Shown: one piece after another, positions 8,995 through 58,227 of the stretch
Layout of the letters: every line of letters starts with the position of its first letter
Position numbering within the stretch: the first letter of the stretch is position 1
Source of the DNA: Thioalkalivibrio thiocyanodenitrificans ARhD 1
GTDB taxonomy: Bacteria > Pseudomonadota > Gammaproteobacteria > Ectothiorhodospirales > Ectothiorhodospiraceae
Length of the DNA: 64,000 nt
NCBI RefSeq assembly: GCF_000378965.1
Contig: NZ_KB900536.1
Coordinates: 1,189,583 to 1,253,582, forward strand
Direction of reading: 5' to 3'
The notes under the pieces: model-generated
Seen by the model: the letters and a program-made list of their open reading frames with translations, nothing else
What the model was told of the DNA's origin: nothing
Database searches by the model: none
Translations under genes and position numbers: made by a program

Positions 8995-9058
8995 GTGGCA
9001 AGTGGCAAGTGGCAAGTGGCGAGGAAAGCAGTCCTTGCCACTTGCCACTTGCCACTTG
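8995..9058. repeat. Fold-back element B (proA/nadD gap), unit CAAGTGG
   Basis: Three tandem CAAGTGG units plus C (8999-9020) face a perfect 22-nt inverted copy at 9037-9058 across a 16-nt loop, with a further partial unit outside the left arm. It fills nearly all of the space between the proA stop and the nadD start. The same words occur in element H at 54002-54146. Confidence 0.95.
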
Positions 9059-51221: not shown

Positions 51222-51246
51222 CCGGGAGTTGCAGACGGAGGTACCT

Positions 51247-51945
51247 GTGAGCGGCAAGATCGTGGGAATCATGGGGGGCATGGGCCCGGAGGCCACCGTG
51301 GACCTGATGGCGAGGGTCATCAGGGGCACACCGGCCGAAGATGACATCGACCATATCCGCATGGTTGTCGACAACAACCCCAAGGTGCCCTCACGCATCA
51401 GGGCCCTGCTCGACGGCGGAGGCGAGAGTCCGGTCCACTGTCTGCAGGACATGGCCCGACGGCTGGCCGCCTGGGGCGTGGACTTTCTGGCCATGCCCTG
51501 CAACACCGCCCACTATTTCCACAAGGAGATCCAGGACGCCGTGTCCATTCCGGTTCTGGACATGATCAGCCTGGCCGTGGCGAGGGCCGCTGACAGCAAT
51601 CCCAACGTTGAGTCCGTGGGCCTGCTCGCTTCCACCGCGACGGTCAATCTCGACATCTACGGACCGGCGGCCGCCCAAAGGGGTCTGGCACTCCTGACTC
51701 CGACACCCGCTGTTCAGGCCGACCTGATGGCCGCCATTCGGCGGATCAAGACAGGCAGGTACGGCGAAGAAACGGTAGCGGCGCTGCAAGACGCCGCGGA
51801 AACCCTGGTACAGGGGGGTGCCGGTGCCCTGCTGGTCGCATGCACGGAGTTGTCCGTCCTCTCGCACCGCATCCGGGCCGGCTGCCCCGTACTGGACTCC
51901 GCCCAGATCCTGGCCGAGGCCATCGTCAGGGAAGCCAACCGGTGA
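51247..51945 (+). CDS. Aspartate/glutamate racemase family protein
   Basis: Cofactor-independent amino-acid racemase fold, 232 residues. The family N-terminus KIVGIMGGMGPEATVDLMARVI and both catalytic cysteines are present (MPCNTAHYF and VACTELSVL), so activity is likely; aspartate is the usual substrate of this YgeA-like group. GTG start at 51247, preceded by GGAGG at 51237-51241; an upstream TTG lacks such a site. Confidence 0.93.
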   Translation: MSGKIVGIMGGMGPEATVDLMARVIRGTPAEDDIDHIRMVVDNNPKVPSRIRALLDGGGESPVHCLQDMARRLAAWGVDFLAMPCNTAHYFHKEIQDAVSIPVLDMISLAVARAADSNPNVESVGLLASTATVNLDIYGPAAAQRGLALLTPTPAVQADLMAAIRRIKTGRYGEETVAALQDAAETLVQGGAGALLVACTELSVLSHRIRAGCPVLDSAQILAEAIVREANR

Positions 51946-52113: not shown

Positions 52114-52638
52114 ATGAGCGAACAGAAGCAGGAAGAGAACACCAAGGACCGCCTTGCCCACGCCTATGACCGCATGCTGGAGCGTGTGCGCCACACGCTG
52201 GACACGGCCGAAAAGAGGGTGGCACCGACCCTGGAGCATGCCCTGAAGGACGCGCGGGAACGGGCGGTGGAACTGGGCGAGATTACGCGCGAGGAAGCGG
52301 ACAAGGTGGCGGATTACGTGCGGCAGGACCTGCACGACATGGCGGAGTATCTCAACGAGACCAGCAGGGACTACCGCGAGTGGTTCCGCATGGACCTCCA
52401 GCTCATCGAGGCGAAGATCATGGACATGCTGGGGTCGATTGCCGACCGTACGCGCGTGGAGATCGCGGAGATCGCGGCCCGGGCCGCGGTGCGGGAACGG
52501 CATACCGGCGAGATCGCCGGTCCGGGGGTGCTGGCATGCACCGGCTGCGGTGAGGAACTGCACTTCAAGACCAGCGGGCACATCCCACCCTGCCCCAAGT
52601 GCCGGAACACCACCTTCCGGCGTATTCGGGGGGAGTGA
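52114..52638 (+). CDS. Zinc-ribbon protein, YbeL-like (DUF1451)
   Basis: 174 residues: a long helical, charged N-terminal part (about 1-140) and a C-terminal zinc ribbon with CTGC and CPKC. Resembles E. coli YbeL, function unknown. Well-placed GGAGGAG precedes the ATG at 52114. Transcribed toward dsrS; followed by two repeat elements. Confidence 0.85.
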   Translation: MSEQKQEENTKDRLAHAYDRMLERVRHTLDTAEKRVAPTLEHALKDARERAVELGEITREEADKVADYVRQDLHDMAEYLNETSRDYREWFRMDLQLIEAKIMDMLGSIADRTRVEIAEIAARAAVRERHTGEIAGPGVLACTGCGEELHFKTSGHIPPCPKCRNTTFRRIRGE

Positions 52639-52665
52639 AAGGCGAACCGTTGCCGGAAAAAACTA

Positions 52666-52754
52666 CGTAGGTTGGGGTGAGCGGAGCGAACCCCAACGGC
52701 CGTGGCGAGACCGATGGCCAATGTTGGGGTTCGCTCCGCTTACCCCAACCTACG
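52666..52754. repeat. Fold-back element F (GTAGGTTGGGG type)
   Basis: Left arm 52666-52697 and right arm 52723-52754 are inverted copies, 31/32 matching, with a 25-nt loop. Each arm is itself a smaller palindrome (GTTGGGG ... CCCCAAC around GAGCGGAGCGA). I recall related sequences from many bacteria. It lies between the convergent ends of the zinc-ribbon gene and dsrS, where it could act as a bidirectional terminator. Confidence 0.93.
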
Positions 52755-52783
52755 GCCGTTCTTGAATTCTGGACAGCTTTTCT

Positions 52784-52813
52784 CGGCGTGCTTTGCGCCT
52801 TTGCGAGAGAAAT
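52784..52813. repeat. Single-armed element G (CGCAAAG words)
   Basis: On the minus strand this reads TCTCGCAAAGGCGCAAAG followed by CACGCCGAG, the same word set as the arms at 41235-41303. Only this arm is clear. It lies just after the dsrS stop codon, in the 200-bp gap shared with element F. Confidence 0.7.
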
Positions 52814-52841
52814 ACTTTCTTCGTCAGCTTCGTGGCTCGGA

Positions 52842-53975
52842 TTACCGGCCGCGCAGACGACGCAGATGGGGCGTCAACGGCACGGTGACCGGCTCGATGC
52901 TGCTGCGCAGCGCGGGCCCCACGGAGTCGGATAGGCCGAAGATGGGGGCGATGAGTTGCTCGCCCACGCAGGCCAGCACCCGCAGGCTCTCCACCAGGGA
53001 GAGATCCTGTTCCGGCAAGCGGGCCTTGAGCGTCGCAAGTTCGCGGCACAGGCGGGGGTCGTTCAGGCAGTCCTCCGGCTGGGCGCAGTCCTCCAGCAGG
53101 GGGGCCATATCCCGGTAGCGTGCCTCGGGGGGCCTGATGGGGGCGAAGTAGTCCTCGATGGCCTCAAAGAGCTGGATCACAACCCCCTGATCGGCGCAAC
53201 GCCGGAACACCCCGTCTACCGTCTCCAGCCAGGCCTGCCCGCGGGGGCTCAGGAGGCGTGCCAGCAGGCCTGCATGTTCGTTCCCCTCCGCTGCCAGTTC
53301 CCCGAGCAGCCCCTCCAGGTCCGCGAAGCGGGGATGCGGCGCTTCTTCCAGGGGCAGGTCGTTCGGCAGGGTCTTGAGAAAGCCCACCCGGTACGCCGGC
53401 TTGCGTTGGCCCCGGGCCCAGAGCTGCTTGCGGGCGGCCTCGTCGATGAGCCCGGGTTGCAGGACCAGGCGTACGGATTCCACCATCTTCTGGGTGTCTT
53501 CTTCATACGGCAGGAATTCCACCAGGAAGTCCGCCAGCACCCGCCCCATCTCCCCCCTCGCCACCCGCTCGCGGGCCAGCATGGCCCGGGCGTGTTCCGG
53601 GGACTGGTCCACCCACCACGCATGGCGGGCGATCTCGTCGGTCAGCCCCTCCGCGTGCACCACGGCGGCCACCGCCTCGGGCTCACCGAGACGCAGCAGT
53701 TTGCCCAGACTGTCGGTGCGCGCGTGCCCCATGCGGGTCCAGCGGTGCATGAAGCGGGGGTAGCCATGGGGGGAACCCAGCACGTGGTTGGAGATCAGCT
53801 CGCGCACCTGGCGCAGGTACTTCTCATCCGGGCAGTTGGGATGGAGCTGCACCTTGGCCTCGCCCTTCCGGGTCAGTGCGACGACCTGCAGCTTGCCCTC
53901 GTCGATGCGCAACGCCCGCAACTCCTGGTTGAGGAGCACGTTCAGGCGCAGGCTGTCTTCCGGGCTCAGGTTCAT
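52842..53975 (-). CDS. dsrS: DsrS-like sulfur metabolism protein
   Basis: 377-residue soluble protein resembling DsrS of purple sulfur bacteria (NLSPEDSLRLNVLLNQELRALRIDE; LGSPHGYPRFMHRWTRMG; LGEPEAVAAVVHAEGL; FLPYEEDTQKMVESVRLVLQPGLI). DsrS closes the dsr cluster in Allochromatium vinosum and its function is unknown. No other dsr gene is next to it here; the upstream neighbours are a VWA/metallopeptidase gene and MoxR, separated by fold-back element H. Recognition is from memory of the family, not a search. Confidence 0.8.
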   Translation of the reverse strand: MNLSPEDSLRLNVLLNQELRALRIDEGKLQVVALTRKGEAKVQLHPNCPDEKYLRQVRELISNHVLGSPHGYPRFMHRWTRMGHARTDSLGKLLRLGEPEAVAAVVHAEGLTDEIARHAWWVDQSPEHARAMLARERVARGEMGRVLADFLVEFLPYEEDTQKMVESVRLVLQPGLIDEAARKQLWARGQRKPAYRVGFLKTLPNDLPLEEAPHPRFADLEGLLGELAAEGNEHAGLLARLLSPRGQAWLETVDGVFRRCADQGVVIQLFEAIEDYFAPIRPPEARYRDMAPLLEDCAQPEDCLNDPRLCRELATLKARLPEQDLSLVESLRVLACVGEQLIAPIFGLSDSVGPALRSSIEPVTVPLTPHLRRLRGR

Positions 53976-54001
53976 CTCATGAACCCTGCCAGTGGCGGGT
54001 A

Positions 54002-54146
54002 AGTGGCAAGTCTCAAGTGGTAAGTCTCAAGTGGCAAGAGCCCCAACCCCCGCCCGCAAGCGGGGCAGGCAGCACACCCGGTTCTTTCCCTCTCCCTCAG
54101 GGAGAGGGTGGTTTCCCTCGCCAGTTGCCACTTGAGACTTGCCACT
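54002..54146. repeat. Fold-back element H, nested (VWA/dsrS gap)
   Basis: Outer arms: AGTGGCAAGTCTCAAGTGG at 54002-54020 and its perfect inverted copy at 54128-54146; the left arm repeats further to about 54040. Nested inside is a second perfect hairpin, CCCTCTCCCT / AGGGAGAGGG at 54088-54108. The outer words match element B. It fills the gap between the two genes. Confidence 0.93.
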
Positions 54147-54150
54147 GCGT

Positions 54151-55425
54151 TCAGTTTAACTGGACGCGCTGCCCCCAGGGCACCGGGCTCTTTCCCTTGA
54201 CCAGCCACACCACGGGGAAATGCGGCGCTAGCGCCGGGAATTCTCCCTGGGCGTCGGTAAAATACACCAGCAGGTCCGGCTGGCGGTCCAGGGTGTCGAT
54301 CCAGTCGAACACGGGTCGGAAATCGGTGCCGCCGCCGCCCTTGAAGGACTCTGGCAGGCGAAGCGCCTCCCACGGCTCGAACACCCAGGGGCCGTCCGGA
54401 TTGAGCGCGTGGTCGCAGCTATGCAGCGAGACCCGGGCACGGATCTGGCCCTTGATGGCGTCCACCTCGGTGATGAAGTCGTTCATCTCCTGGTCGGACA
54501 CCGAGCCGCTGGTGTCCAGCACCACCACCATGTCCAGGTTGTGGCTGCGCAGGCTGGGCAGGATGGCCGGCTCGCCTCGCCTGGACGAGGGACGGTTGTA
54601 ACTGTAGTCGTCCCGGGCCTGGGCGCTCATGTAGCGGGCCAGCAGCATGCGCCACGGCAGTTGGGGCTGCAGCAGGTGGTCCACCAGGCGCGCCATGTCG
54701 CCGCTGAGCTTGCCCGCCTGCATCGCCTGCTGGGCGGCGCCGGCCAGACGCTGCCGCCACTGCACGGCCAACTCCTCGCGTTCCTGATGACTCAGGGGCG
54801 GCGGCGGCTGGCTGCCGCCCTGGTTCTCGTCGGTCTCGGTTTCCGGCCGGTCGCTCTCGTTGCGACCCTGCCCGCGATCCTGTTCCTCATCCTCGTTGCG
54901 GCTGCCGCCGTTGCCCTCGCCGGAATCCGGCGGCGGCTGTCTGCCCCTGCCGCGGCTCTGTTCCTCGGGCCGGTCGTACACATGCTGGTCCAGGGTGGAT
55001 TCGTTCTCGTTATCCTGGATGAAGGGGTAGATCTCCTCGGCGGACATGCCCTCGTAGCTGCGCTCGTAAAGCATCCCCGGCGGCGGGGTGAGGCCGTCGT
55101 TGATGAGAATGGGGTTGATGGCGTAGTCGCAGGCGATGTCCCACAGGTGCTTGACCCGGTGACCGCGCCGGGCGAAGTGGCCGAGTGCGCAGTGCAGGGC
55201 CTCGTGGGCCAGCATGAACTGGGTCTCTGCGAGATTGAGCCTGTCGATGTACTCGGCGTTGTAGTAGAGCTTGCGGGCGTCCACGGCCGTGGTCCTGCAC
55301 CAGTCGCCGGCGGCCTCCAGGGGCAGGCGCAGCACCAGCGCGCCCAGGAAGGGCTTGTCCAGGATCAGGCGCGTGCGCGCCGCCCCGAGCTTGGTTTCCA
55401 CGTCAGGCCTGGTCACGACTGTCAC
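54151..55425 (-). CDS. VWA-like protein with N-terminal HExxH metallopeptidase domain
   Basis: 424 residues. The N-terminal putative metallopeptidase domain carries HEALH at 74-78 (AHEALHCALGHFARRG), a middle acidic, Gln/Arg/Pro-rich linker (about 150-215), and a C-terminal VWA-like domain with the MIDAS motif DTSGS at about residue 300. Proteins of this type pair with MoxR ATPases as chaperone-like systems for metal or cofactor insertion; the client here is unknown, but DsrS is encoded next. GTG start at 55425, 11 bp after moxR; a second GTG at 55416 is possible. Confidence 0.9.
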   Translation of the reverse strand: MTVVTRPDVETKLGAARTRLILDKPFLGALVLRLPLEAAGDWCRTTAVDARKLYYNAEYIDRLNLAETQFMLAHEALHCALGHFARRGHRVKHLWDIACDYAINPILINDGLTPPPGMLYERSYEGMSAEEIYPFIQDNENESTLDQHVYDRPEEQSRGRGRQPPPDSGEGNGGSRNEDEEQDRGQGRNESDRPETETDENQGGSQPPPPLSHQEREELAVQWRQRLAGAAQQAMQAGKLSGDMARLVDHLLQPQLPWRMLLARYMSAQARDDYSYNRPSSRRGEPAILPSLRSHNLDMVVVLDTSGSVSDQEMNDFITEVDAIKGQIRARVSLHSCDHALNPDGPWVFEPWEALRLPESFKGGGGTDFRPVFDWIDTLDRQPDLLVYFTDAQGEFPALAPHFPVVWLVKGKSPVPWGQRVQLN

Positions 55426-55436
55426 TCCCCGCGACC

Positions 55437-56483
55437 TCAGTTCTCGTAGAGCATCAGGTCCGCCACCTCCGTGGCCCAGCGCCCGAACTCCGGCACCGAG
55501 AACAACGGTTCGCCCAGCGCCCGGTGCATGTCCATGATCATCATCACGCCCATCTCACGCTGGGGGAACACGCCGGCGTAGTTGAGGATATTGCCCCAGA
55601 CCACCGGCGCCTCCTCTGCCTCCTGCGCGCGAATCGCCCGACCCACCAGGGCGGCGGCCACGGCGTACTGCAGGTCGATCTCCCGGGGCGCCGGCAGGGC
55701 CTCCCCGGCCACGATGGCATCCAGGTCCGGCAGCTCCTCCAGATGCGCCAGGAAGGCGGCCAGCTCGATGCCCGCCGCCTGGCCCACGCAGGCCTGGAGC
55801 GCGCCCGAGAGCAGCTCGGGTTGCCCCTCGAACTTCTGCAGGGCCCGGTGGGCAAACTCCCAGGAACGGGGCGAAGGAAAGGCGACGGGGTTGTGGGCCG
55901 GATCGAAGTCGAACAGCAGGTCGGGGCGAAACCGGATGAAGGCGATGATGCGATCATCGATACCCGCGCCGTAGGCCCAGGCCGCCCAGTCGTCCACGTT
56001 CAGATCGACCTCGAAGTGCGAGAAGCGGTTGGCCAGCGGCGCGGGCATGGTGTAGGTCACACCCCGGTCTCCCTGGCGGTTGCCGGCGGCGAAGATGGCC
56101 CAGCCCGGCGGCACCTGGTAGTTGCCCAGGCGCCGGTCGAGGATCAGCTGGTAGGCGGCAGCCGAGACACTCGGGGGCGCCGAGGTGATCTCGTCCAGGA
56201 ACAGGATGCCCTCCGGGCCCTGGCGCTCGGCGTCGGGCAGCATGGCGGGGATCGCCCATTCCACCAGGTCGCCGTGCTTGAAAGGGATGCCGCGCAGGTC
56301 CGAGGGCTCCATCTGGGAGAGCCGGATATCGATCAGCGGCACACCGTGCTTCGCCGCCACCTGGGTGATCATCTGGGACTTGCCCACCCCCGGCGGGCCC
56401 CACAGCATTACGGGGGTGTGGTGCCCCGAACGGGTACTCTCGAACTCCCGGTCCAGCACTTGCAGCAACTGCGCGGGTCGCAT
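55437..56483 (-). CDS. MoxR-family AAA+ ATPase
   Basis: 348 residues: Walker A GPPGVGKS at 29-36, Walker B ILFLDE at about 93-98, sensor region WAIFAAGNRQGDRGVTYTMPAPLANRFSHFEV. Works with the downstream VWA-like protein as an ATP-driven assembly or activation factor (inference from the family pairing). The 208-bp gap upstream shows no gene; TTGCGG with TGTAAC about 16 bp downstream is a possible promoter on the minus strand. Confidence 0.94.
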   Translation of the reverse strand: MRPAQLLQVLDREFESTRSGHHTPVMLWGPPGVGKSQMITQVAAKHGVPLIDIRLSQMEPSDLRGIPFKHGDLVEWAIPAMLPDAERQGPEGILFLDEITSAPPSVSAAAYQLILDRRLGNYQVPPGWAIFAAGNRQGDRGVTYTMPAPLANRFSHFEVDLNVDDWAAWAYGAGIDDRIIAFIRFRPDLLFDFDPAHNPVAFPSPRSWEFAHRALQKFEGQPELLSGALQACVGQAAGIELAAFLAHLEELPDLDAIVAGEALPAPREIDLQYAVAAALVGRAIRAQEAEEAPVVWGNILNYAGVFPQREMGVMMIMDMHRALGEPLFSVPEFGRWATEVADLMLYEN

Positions 56484-56691
56484 ATCTCTCTCTCGGTTTT
56501 GCCTTCGGTTAACCTGCTGAGGTTACAGGATCGGGCCCTTGGACCGCAAAACGGAGGGTTATTCCGGGTGTGAGGGGGGGGCACCCTGACGGCTGCTCGA
56601 TGCACAACCCTTCCCGCCGGCCACGCGCGCACATGCGGACCGGAGATCCGCGCGGCATGGCGCCCGCGGGCGTGCCGTACGTCAGCGGTCA

Positions 56692-58227
56692 TCATCCCCG
56701 CGTTCTCCCTGTGTCCTCCATCACTTTCGGTGGCGGCGCCCGACGGCTGAGGAGCAGCAGGCCGAAGGTGAGCAGCAGGGCGGCTCCATTACCCCACCGG
56801 CCGAAGGGCGTGAGCCCCGACCGGAGCCGGGCCTCGGCGGTGAGCACATGGGTCTCGAACTGAGGCGAAGTGGCAATCAGTTCACCGCGATGACCGATGA
56901 CGGCGGAAACCCCCGTGTTGGTCGCCCGAAGCATGTCGCGGCCGGTCTCCAGCGAACGCATGCGGGCGATCTCGAGATGCTGATGGGGGGCGATGGAATC
57001 ACCGAACCAGGCATCGTTGCTCACGTTGACGAGCAACTGCGCCTCGGGCAGGGCCTGGATGACCTGTCCGCCGAAGGCATCCTCGTAGCACACCGAGGTA
57101 CCGACGATGATGCCGCCCACATCCAGCAGCGGACGACCGCTGCCGGGCGACAGGTCGGACATGGGTATGTCCAGGTAATCATCCAGCCACATCAGCAGGC
57201 CGCGCAGCGGCAGATACTCCCCGAAGGGCACGAGATGACGCTTGTGGTAGGCGGCGGGATGCCCGGTCACATGGACGATGCTGTTGTACATGTCCCCGGT
57301 GGCGAACCGGTACACGAAGATTCCCGTCACCAGCGCGCCGCCCGCGGCCTCCACCTCGGCGGCGATCTCCGTCATCGGCTCCTCAACCTCGTGGTAGAAG
57401 GTGGGAATGGCCGTTTCCGGCCACAGGACGATATCCGAACCCAGTGCCTGCCGGGTGAGCCCGCCATAAAGCTCCAGTGCCTCTTCCACCGCATCTGGCC
57501 CCCACTTTTCCTTCTGGTCCACGTTGCCCTGGACAAGACTCACGGTGATGGGCTCCCCGTCGACCCCGGTCCACTCGATACGGGCAAGACCGACGCCCAG
57601 CGCCCAGACGAGCGCCAGTGCCGCCAGCCCGCCGCCCAGCGTACGCAGTGACCATCGCACCACCATCCAGGCCAGCAACCCCGCCATGAGCGCCGCCGCC
57701 AGGCTGGCCCCGTACGCGCCCAGCACGGGCACATAGCCCGCCAGAGCCGTATCCACGTGGGCAGTGCCCAGCAGCAACCAGGGGAAGCCGGTGAGAAACC
57801 ATCCGCGCCACCATTCGAACAGCACCCATGCGGCGGGGAAACACACCGCGAGCGCCAGCCCCGGCAGACGCGGCCCGAAGCGGGCCAGCAAGTAGCCCAG
57901 CAGCGCGGGATAGAGCGCCAGGAAGGCGACGAACAACGCGGTGATGAACGCCGCAAGCGGGGCGATGGCCGCGCCGAACAGGTACAGGCTGTGGTAGATC
58001 CAGTGCACCCCCGCGCCGAACATGCCCAGACCGAACAGATACCCCAGCCAGGCAGCGCGACCCGGTGTCCGGTCCCACCAAAGCAGGAACAGCAACGCCG
58101 GGGCAAGGATGCTCAAGGGGCGAAGGGCATAGGGCGCGAACGCCAGCGCAAGCAGCACACCGGCCAGCAGGGCCAGTGCATCGGACAAACGGGGACGGGC
58201 CTCGAGAATGGCGATCACCGGGTTCAT
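56692..58227 (-). CDS. lnt: Apolipoprotein N-acyltransferase
   Basis: Adds the third acyl chain to lipoproteins in the inner membrane. 511 residues: about eight N-terminal membrane segments and a periplasmic nitrilase-like domain with the catalytic triad Glu271 (LWPETA), Lys329 (YHKRHLVPFGEY) and Cys380 (SVCYEDAF). Last gene of the miaB-phoH-ybeY-corC-lnt order. No ribosome-binding site is visible before the ATG at 58227, close to element I. Confidence 0.97.
   Translation of the reverse strand: MNPVIAILEARPRLSDALALLAGVLLALAFAPYALRPLSILAPALLFLLWWDRTPGRAAWLGYLFGLGMFGAGVHWIYHSLYLFGAAIAPLAAFITALFVAFLALYPALLGYLLARFGPRLPGLALAVCFPAAWVLFEWWRGWFLTGFPWLLLGTAHVDTALAGYVPVLGAYGASLAAALMAGLLAWMVVRWSLRTLGGGLAALALVWALGVGLARIEWTGVDGEPITVSLVQGNVDQKEKWGPDAVEEALELYGGLTRQALGSDIVLWPETAIPTFYHEVEEPMTEIAAEVEAAGGALVTGIFVYRFATGDMYNSIVHVTGHPAAYHKRHLVPFGEYLPLRGLLMWLDDYLDIPMSDLSPGSGRPLLDVGGIIVGTSVCYEDAFGGQVIQALPEAQLLVNVSNDAWFGDSIAPHQHLEIARMRSLETGRDMLRATNTGVSAVIGHRGELIATSPQFETHVLTAEARLRSGLTPFGRWGNGAALLLTFGLLLLSRRAPPPKVMEDTGRTRG

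Follow-up and report, generated by a model that had tools for sequence, protein, structure and literature searches.

Examination of a 64,000-nucleotide stretch of the Thioalkalivibrio thiocyanodenitrificans ARhD 1 genome (contig NZ_KB900536.1, positions 1,189,583 to 1,253,582; hereafter, the window) revealed three adjacent and similarly oriented open reading frames (ORFs) on the minus strand, between positions 56483 and 52842. In the order of transcription, these correspond to moxR, a gene encoding a DUF2201 protein with a VWA domain (hereafter, the VWA gene) and dsrS (Table 1), separated by 11 and 175 bp, respectively. The three ORFs, their common direction and the short gaps between them are as given in a preliminary description of this DNA. 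The genome (G000; 3,746,647 bases in three contigs) contains a single copy of dsrS.

Table 1. The moxR-VWA-dsrS trio and the element found within it; positions are those of the window.
Feature	Position	Strand	Remarks
moxR-like AAA+ ATPase gene	55437..56483	-	348 amino acids; Pfam AAA and AAA_5 above cut-offs
DUF2201 zincin-like/VWA gene	54151..55425	-	424 amino acids; Pfam DUF2201_N and DUF2201
dsrS	52842..53975	-	377 amino acids; homologs in 106/369 genomes, some inside classical dsr operons
VWA-dsrS gap with long palindromic repeat-like element	53976..54150	-	RNA fold

Searches of Pfam and NCBIfam at E<=1 gave no match for the product of the last of these genes. Homologs of this protein were found directly after dsrR in classical operons at loci L249 (Candidatus Thiodiazotropha), L250 and L269 (both Escarpia endosymbionts), L133, L137, L163, L181, L192, L034 and others, with those encoded at L249 and L250 sharing 46% and 45% identity, respectively, with the protein of the window. 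In Allochromatium vinosum, dsrN, dsrR and dsrS bear the consecutive locus tags Alvin_1263-1265 (PMC10892978), and T. thiocyanodenitrificans itself has been described as containing a dsrABEFHCMKLJOPNR cluster, with dsrS found elsewhere in the genome (PMC5328954). Given its homology to the gene following dsrN-dsrR, its co-occurrence with dsrA, considered below, and this published placement of dsrS, the window protein is assigned as DsrS; as judged by sequence comparison, it is homologous to the product of the gene that closes the dsrABEFHCMKLJOPNRS operon.

In the same genome, dsrA was located by profile at G000:C1:1111036-1112241, some 130 kb from dsrS (1242427). The frames after dsrA appear in the expected dsr order; dsrN and dsrR were recognized by similarity, and the frames in between are those that we take to be dsrB to dsrP, these names having been assigned from gene order, with no profile being used. 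A position of dsrS outside the dsr cluster is known for two Thioalkalivibrio species (PMC5328954), as well as for Sulfurifustis and Sulfuricaulis (PMC5024460). Moreover, A. vinosum dsrS has an additional, independent promoter, as would fit a gene usable apart from the dsr operon, in the same 2011 report that called the role of DsrS unresolved (PMC3368242). No later functional assignment for DsrS was found in the literature searched, nor was any DsrS match obtained in searches of plasmids and viral contigs.

To what extent the three genes travel together was considered in a sample of 369 gammaproteobacterial genomes (the class genomes). In this sample, dsrA was counted in 119 genomes, namely 112 with matches over the cut-off and seven with partial matches counted as present. 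With orthologs defined by E below 1e-60, the VWA protein was found in 105 genomes (111 at E<=0.001) and MoxR in 107; at E<=0.001, MoxR matches were seen in 287 genomes, most being weak matches to other AAA+ proteins. The MoxR count was adjusted by adding a contig-end fragment from G272 (E 1.0e-27, 63% identity) and dropping G322 (E 2.3e-61, 40% identity), and two doubtful calls were kept in the counts, these being G181 (38% identity for VWA and 54% for MoxR, without dsrA) and G145 (a MoxR fragment).

The presence of dsrS was closely matched by that of the VWA gene, with both occurring in 102 genomes, dsrS only in four (G081 and G188, plus partial matches in G093 and G243), the VWA gene only in three (G100, G181 and G213) and neither in 260. 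Likewise, dsrS and dsrA were both present in 98 genomes (dsrA being over the cut-off in 91 and partial in seven), dsrS only in eight, dsrA only in 21 and neither in 242. When the 119 dsrA genomes were considered as a group, 94 contained dsrS together with the MoxR-VWA pair, four dsrS only, three MoxR or VWA only (G100, G145 and G376) and 18 none of the three. The dsrA genomes carry 60 family labels, 54 of which also include dsrS and the pair and six neither. A similar picture was obtained with 58 relatives, the window's genome included, where dsrS was found in 15 genomes and dsrA over the cut-off in 17, with all 15 dsrS genomes containing dsrA. G015 and G033, close relatives that contain dsrA and lack dsrS, likewise lack MoxR and VWA orthologs. 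The fragmented G001 genome contains dsrA and, where a contig ends, part of dsrS; no MoxR ortholog was found in it.

Gene order was next compared at 103 dsrS loci, drawn from the 106 class genomes with dsrS after setting aside the window itself, G228 and G243. At 52 of these, the VWA gene was encountered on the same strand within 1.5 kb upstream of dsrS and was preceded by moxR; the VWA-dsrS gap had a median length of 37 bp and was no longer than 200 bp in 42 cases. These 52 loci span 33 family labels (34 when that of the window is counted). Because the arrangement recurs in about half of the dsrS loci examined, that seen in the window does not reflect chance. At the remaining loci, the pair lies farther upstream on the same strand (two), dsrN or dsrR directly precedes dsrS (six), a contig ends within 3 kb (nine) or some other gene order is found (34). 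The pair is encoded elsewhere in the genome for 31 of the 34 loci in this last group, for all six classical loci and for all nine contig-end loci. The preliminary description had asked whether moxR-VWA-dsrS is conserved in sulfur oxidizers. The arrangement is seen at these 52 loci, and the contrary outcome named there, in which the majority of relatives would have dsrS beside genes unrelated to it, was not observed.

In several genomes, the trio adjoins other dsr genes. At L158, L159 and L162 (from G324, G218 and G078, respectively, all of one family), the genes follow one another as dsrL-J-O-P-N-R-moxR-VWA-dsrS on a single strand, which also carries dsrA within the contig. Labels based on hidden Markov models were obtained for L158, where DsrO is over the NCBIfam cut-off, the dsrN product is CobB-like and the pair presents the same Pfam domains as its window counterpart. 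At L169 (G123), moxR-VWA-dsrS is followed by dsrA some 0.4 kb past the end of a partial dsrS match. Overall, dsrA was found within 33 kb of dsrS in at least 34 genomes, picked by hand, short contigs making this count a lower bound; 16 of these are among the 52 loci with the pair beside dsrS. The coupling of DsrS to MoxR and VWA proposed in the preliminary description is thus borne out beyond the window by matched presence, recurrent adjacency and joined dsr clusters, and had, if anything, been understated.

The sequences of the encoded proteins were then considered. The window MoxR retains intact ATPase motifs. In its Walker A motif (GPPGVGKS), residues G29, P31, G32, G34, K35 and S36 are invariant, and G34-K35, the Walker B residues D97-E98, N135 and R153 are unchanged in all 77 aligned sequences, the query included; N135 and R153 presumably correspond to the sensor Asn and the arginine finger of this fold. 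Among solved structures, the closest sequence is midasin, followed by NorQ and CbbQ. CbbQ_C, which we take to be the C-terminal domain of the CGN (CbbQ/GvpN/NorQ) subfamily of MoxR proteins, was not among the 20 Pfam families listed for the window MoxR at E<=1.

The VWA gene product matched Pfam DUF2201_N (E 4.9e-48) and the VWA-like DUF2201 family (E 1.6e-22), and comprises an N-terminal zincin-like domain containing the motif HEALHCALGH (residues 74-83), a middle region of low confidence and a C-terminal VWA domain with a full metal ion-dependent adhesion site (MIDAS; D304-S306-S308/T367/D391). This combination of DUF2201_N and a MIDAS-bearing VWA-like domain is that of a MoxR-associated VWA partner. 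The AlphaFold2 model of the protein is of moderate confidence (predicted local distance difference test score, pLDDT, 73). In structural alignment, the modeled C-terminal domain matched VWA domains with a Z of 11.6 (best Foldseek E, 1.7e-3); for the four best rows, root-mean-square deviations were 2.6-2.8 across 127-142 aligned residues. In an alignment of 82 sequences, again counting the query, D304, S306, S308 and D391 are conserved in all 82 and T367 in 81, and the first His of HExxH is replaced by Q, K or R in nine. In light of these replacements and the near-complete retention of MIDAS residues, constraint appears stronger on MIDAS-mediated binding than on peptidase chemistry.

DsrS was modeled with high confidence (pLDDT 91) as a short N-terminal beta part followed by a helical solenoid. 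The model yielded no Foldseek match at E<=0.001, and no relative was found by sequence among solved structures (best E 0.14). Because the structural alignment rows, comprising importin, ARM and HEAT-like chains, reached a Z of 6.2 or less, only a generic helical-solenoid arrangement can be assigned. When fixed ten-residue blocks were compared, conservation was highest for residues 71-80 (GYPRFMHRWT; 0.82), followed by residues 91-100 (0.81). Residues 71-80 are also the block modeled with the lowest confidence (pLDDT 54), as a predicted loop, a pattern that would be expected of a loop that folds upon a partner.

The matched presence and absence of the three genes, their recurrent adjacency and the joined dsr clusters argue for the trio being a partner of the gammaproteobacterial Dsr system. 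In the reading that we consider probable, moxR, the VWA gene and dsrS encode a three-part helper of this system in gammaproteobacterial sulfur oxidizers, in which a Dsr client would be remodeled at the expense of ATP and DsrS would serve as adaptor; that the three proteins form a complex, as well as its client and activity, is what we infer. On the model of NorQD and CbbQO, MoxR would assemble into an AAA+ ring working on the VWA partner, whose MIDAS would in turn contact the client through an acidic residue of the latter. Selecting or holding that client would fall to DsrS, a predicted solenoid with a highly conserved, flexible loop. The likeliest client would be a cofactor-rich part of the Dsr system, with DsrAB, containing siro(haem)amide and Fe-S centers, coming first and DsrMKJOP or DsrL second. 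The likeliest action would be ATP-driven remodeling by which the client is repaired, activated or loaded, helpful without being essential. A narrower version, put forward more tentatively, holds that the trio is a dedicated Dsr activase, inserting or repairing the siro(haem)amide-Fe-S center of reverse-acting DsrAB, or else contributing to DsrMKJOP maturation, with DsrS as client adaptor. Were this so, no earlier MoxR-VWA system would, to our knowledge, have had a sulfite reductase as its client.

By comparison with NorQD, CbbQO and RavA-ViaA, the trio may plausibly mature a sulfur-metabolism complex, the role suggested in the preliminary description. Iron insertion into cNOR depends on NorQ-NorD, a pair formed by a MoxR AAA+ protein and a VWA protein (PMC9976466, PMC13036017); the NorD MIDAS is essential for active cNOR, which it is proposed to bind (PMC9976466), and the NorQ ring is proposed to twist a NorD linker so as to let the metal in (PMC13036017). 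Like the window pair, NorQ-NorD combines a MoxR ATPase with a C-terminal VWA domain containing a full MIDAS, is encoded by paired genes and is linked to one redox metalloenzyme; NorQ is also one of the solved proteins closest in sequence to the window MoxR. Unlike NorD, the window VWA partner contains a DUF2201 zincin-like N-terminal domain and is accompanied by the product of a third dedicated gene, dsrS; moreover, no link to nitric oxide reductase was seen for the trio, whose proposed client would be a Dsr protein. The Rubisco activase CbbQ-CbbO likewise combines MoxR with a MIDAS-containing VWA adaptor, the MIDAS contacting residue Asp82 on the large subunit of Rubisco (PMC5385338), and a role in activation or repair that helps without being strictly indispensable would suit the trio as well. 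Here, however, the client is Rubisco, and no DsrS-like partner is mentioned in the accessible text of that report (PMC5385338). RavA-ViaA is also a MoxR-VWA pair that modulates respiratory enzymes, for which no tie to sulfur genes was noticed in the accessible parts of the corresponding papers (PMC3893208, PMC10585395). As for DsrS itself, the A. vinosum protein is of the same family, as judged by the position of its gene after dsrN-dsrR in the operon, whereas window dsrS is remote from the dsr cluster and lies behind moxR-VWA.

Several observations weigh against a Dsr helper. To begin with, dsrS has been called non-essential for sulfur oxidation (PMC5944118), and the 18 of 119 dsrA genomes devoid of all three genes contradict a strict reading in which the trio is required for Dsr. 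Because of these two points, repair, activation or fine maturation is proposed rather than obligate assembly. G081 and G188 contain dsrS and dsrA without the pair, and in G035, a Thioalkalivibrio relative, VWA and MoxR proteins 66% and 83% identical to those of the window are encoded (L297), with dsrS and dsrA not being found. In eight of the 106 genomes with dsrS, nothing closer to dsrA was seen than weak matches to sirohaem enzymes. One of these, G162 (L099), is listed as 100% complete and presents moxR-VWA-dsrS in a row with no dsrA over the cut-off; here, either the trio outlived Dsr or it serves something else. In contiguous genomes, the trio can lie far from dsrA, i.e., at some 130 kb in the window's genome, 345 kb in G120 and 530 kb in G167. 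Fisher tests of co-occurrence gave extreme values, in a calculation that ignores phylogeny and with drafts making single absences soft. Finally, when dsrA genomes from other classes of Pseudomonadota were considered (44 over the cut-off and one partial, with oxidative and reductive Dsr not told apart and G557, represented by fragments, left out), DsrS was found in none of the 45 by a profile search that matched three class genomes as controls, and the VWA protein was likewise found in none. Because of this distribution, the trio looks to be an accessory of gammaproteobacterial Dsr rather than a universal part of Dsr. Sorting of dsrA types by alignment end was dropped, as this coordinate fails to separate the groups.

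A further point concerns cysG, encoding siroheme synthase (Pfam), which is found on the same strand within 1.5 kb downstream of dsrS at 27 of the 103 loci. Given the siroheme in Dsr, this proximity is suggestive, albeit not decisive. Because the neighborhood also holds other conserved genes (encoding a DUF6866 protein, a 195-amino acid family, a Sel1 protein and a glutaredoxin), it is treated as a hint rather than as direct evidence for siroheme maturation, and may instead reflect an old housekeeping neighborhood. The 195-amino acid family, which has no Pfam match, and the opposite-strand DUF6866 protein are recurrent neighbors of dsrS, as at L110 (12271-14315) and its counterparts. At L112 (13158-14768; G343), a second, unrelated VWA protein is encoded just past dsrS-grxC-cysG.

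Among the other explanations for these data, the one that fares best has the trio, inherited along with a sulfur-oxidizing lifestyle, acting as a general chaperone of chemolithotrophic respiratory or carbon-fixation machinery, with a client that is not a Dsr protein. G162 and the seven other dsrS genomes without detected dsrA would fit such a role, as would the varied nature of known MoxR-VWA clients (PMC3893208, PMC5385338) and the window pair adjoining lnt and other housekeeping genes. Still, of the 20 genomes assigned to genus g3 among the relatives, six contain dsrA, four of these having the full trio, and none of the 14 others has it (G035 having the pair alone). Clusters in which dsr genes and moxR-VWA-dsrS are joined exist as well, and a general chaperone is rather unlikely in view of both points.

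Less likely still is that shared ancestry accounts for the pattern, with the genes having been neighbors in an ancestral gammaproteobacterial sulfur oxidizer and having persisted in the absence of any functional tie. Indeed, a neighborhood encoding the 195-amino acid family, sel1, dsrS, grxC and cysG recurs both with and without moxR-VWA between sel1 and dsrS, many of the 34 loci of other gene order keeping these flanks while missing the pair, and the co-occurrence statistics do not take phylogeny into account. Yet the 18 dsrA genomes without the trio include not only nine from the six trio-less families but also nine from nine families in which another member has the trio, in which all three genes are missing and dsrA is kept (these being drafts, some absences may be assembly gaps). 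Moreover, dsrS and the pair match even when apart, as in the 31 of 34 genomes noted above, and dsrS is found in two contexts, namely dsrN-R-S and pair-S. Finally, and least likely, the DUF2201 protein would act as a zinc protease and, with MoxR and DsrS, would see to the quality control or regulated proteolysis of proteins belonging to Dsr or to sulfur globules. HExxH is found in the window protein, as in the majority of its aligned orthologs, and Pfam labels the domain a putative metallopeptidase; against this, the first His is replaced in nine of 82 sequences, whereas the MIDAS residues are kept in 81-82.

A three-part Dsr helper accordingly remains the preferred reading, and the link between DsrS and the pair points to an unrecognized helper for a sulfite reductase enzyme system. 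Many marine, symbiotic and soda-lake bacteria oxidize their stored sulfur by means of Dsr, and the link renders the long-open question of DsrS testable, namely whether this enzyme system is served by a helper machine. If this is true, a cofactor-rich sulfite reductase system would join the short list of MoxR-VWA clients. No published link of DsrS, dsrA or the dsr operon to MoxR or VWA proteins was found, in a search mostly without subscription papers, including Dahl et al. (2005).

Within the trio, the repeat-like element in the VWA-dsrS gap is predicted to form, as RNA, a very stable hairpin (-97.3 kcal/mol; z -6.84). An exact 16-base portion of this element also appears in the VWA-dsrS gap at L025 and L026, both of the same genus, with one further copy upstream of dsrA and the dsr cluster in G000 (L023). 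Repeats similar to the element are found at window positions 8995-9055. No terminator-like site was detected by scan within 53976-54150, and no sigma-70-like promoter across window positions 52600-56800; the scan of this region yielded two terminator-like sites, both within the VWA gene and no more numerous than in shuffled sequences.

Some 6 kb past dsrR in the same genome (L176 8669-11994; G000:C1), adjoining genes encode a lipoate-protein ligase, a geranylgeranyl-reductase-like flavoprotein and a radical SAM protein, a set reminiscent of the lipoate-assembly genes of another sulfur-oxidation pathway. As to the surroundings of the trio, a Pfam and NCBIfam scan identified the upstream neighbor of moxR as lnt. 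Past dsrS, on the opposite strand, lie genes encoding a DUF1451 protein and then a racemase (window positions 51229-51945, plus strand), the latter matching the NCBIfam cysteate racemase CuyB with 273.6 bits against a cut-off of 190.

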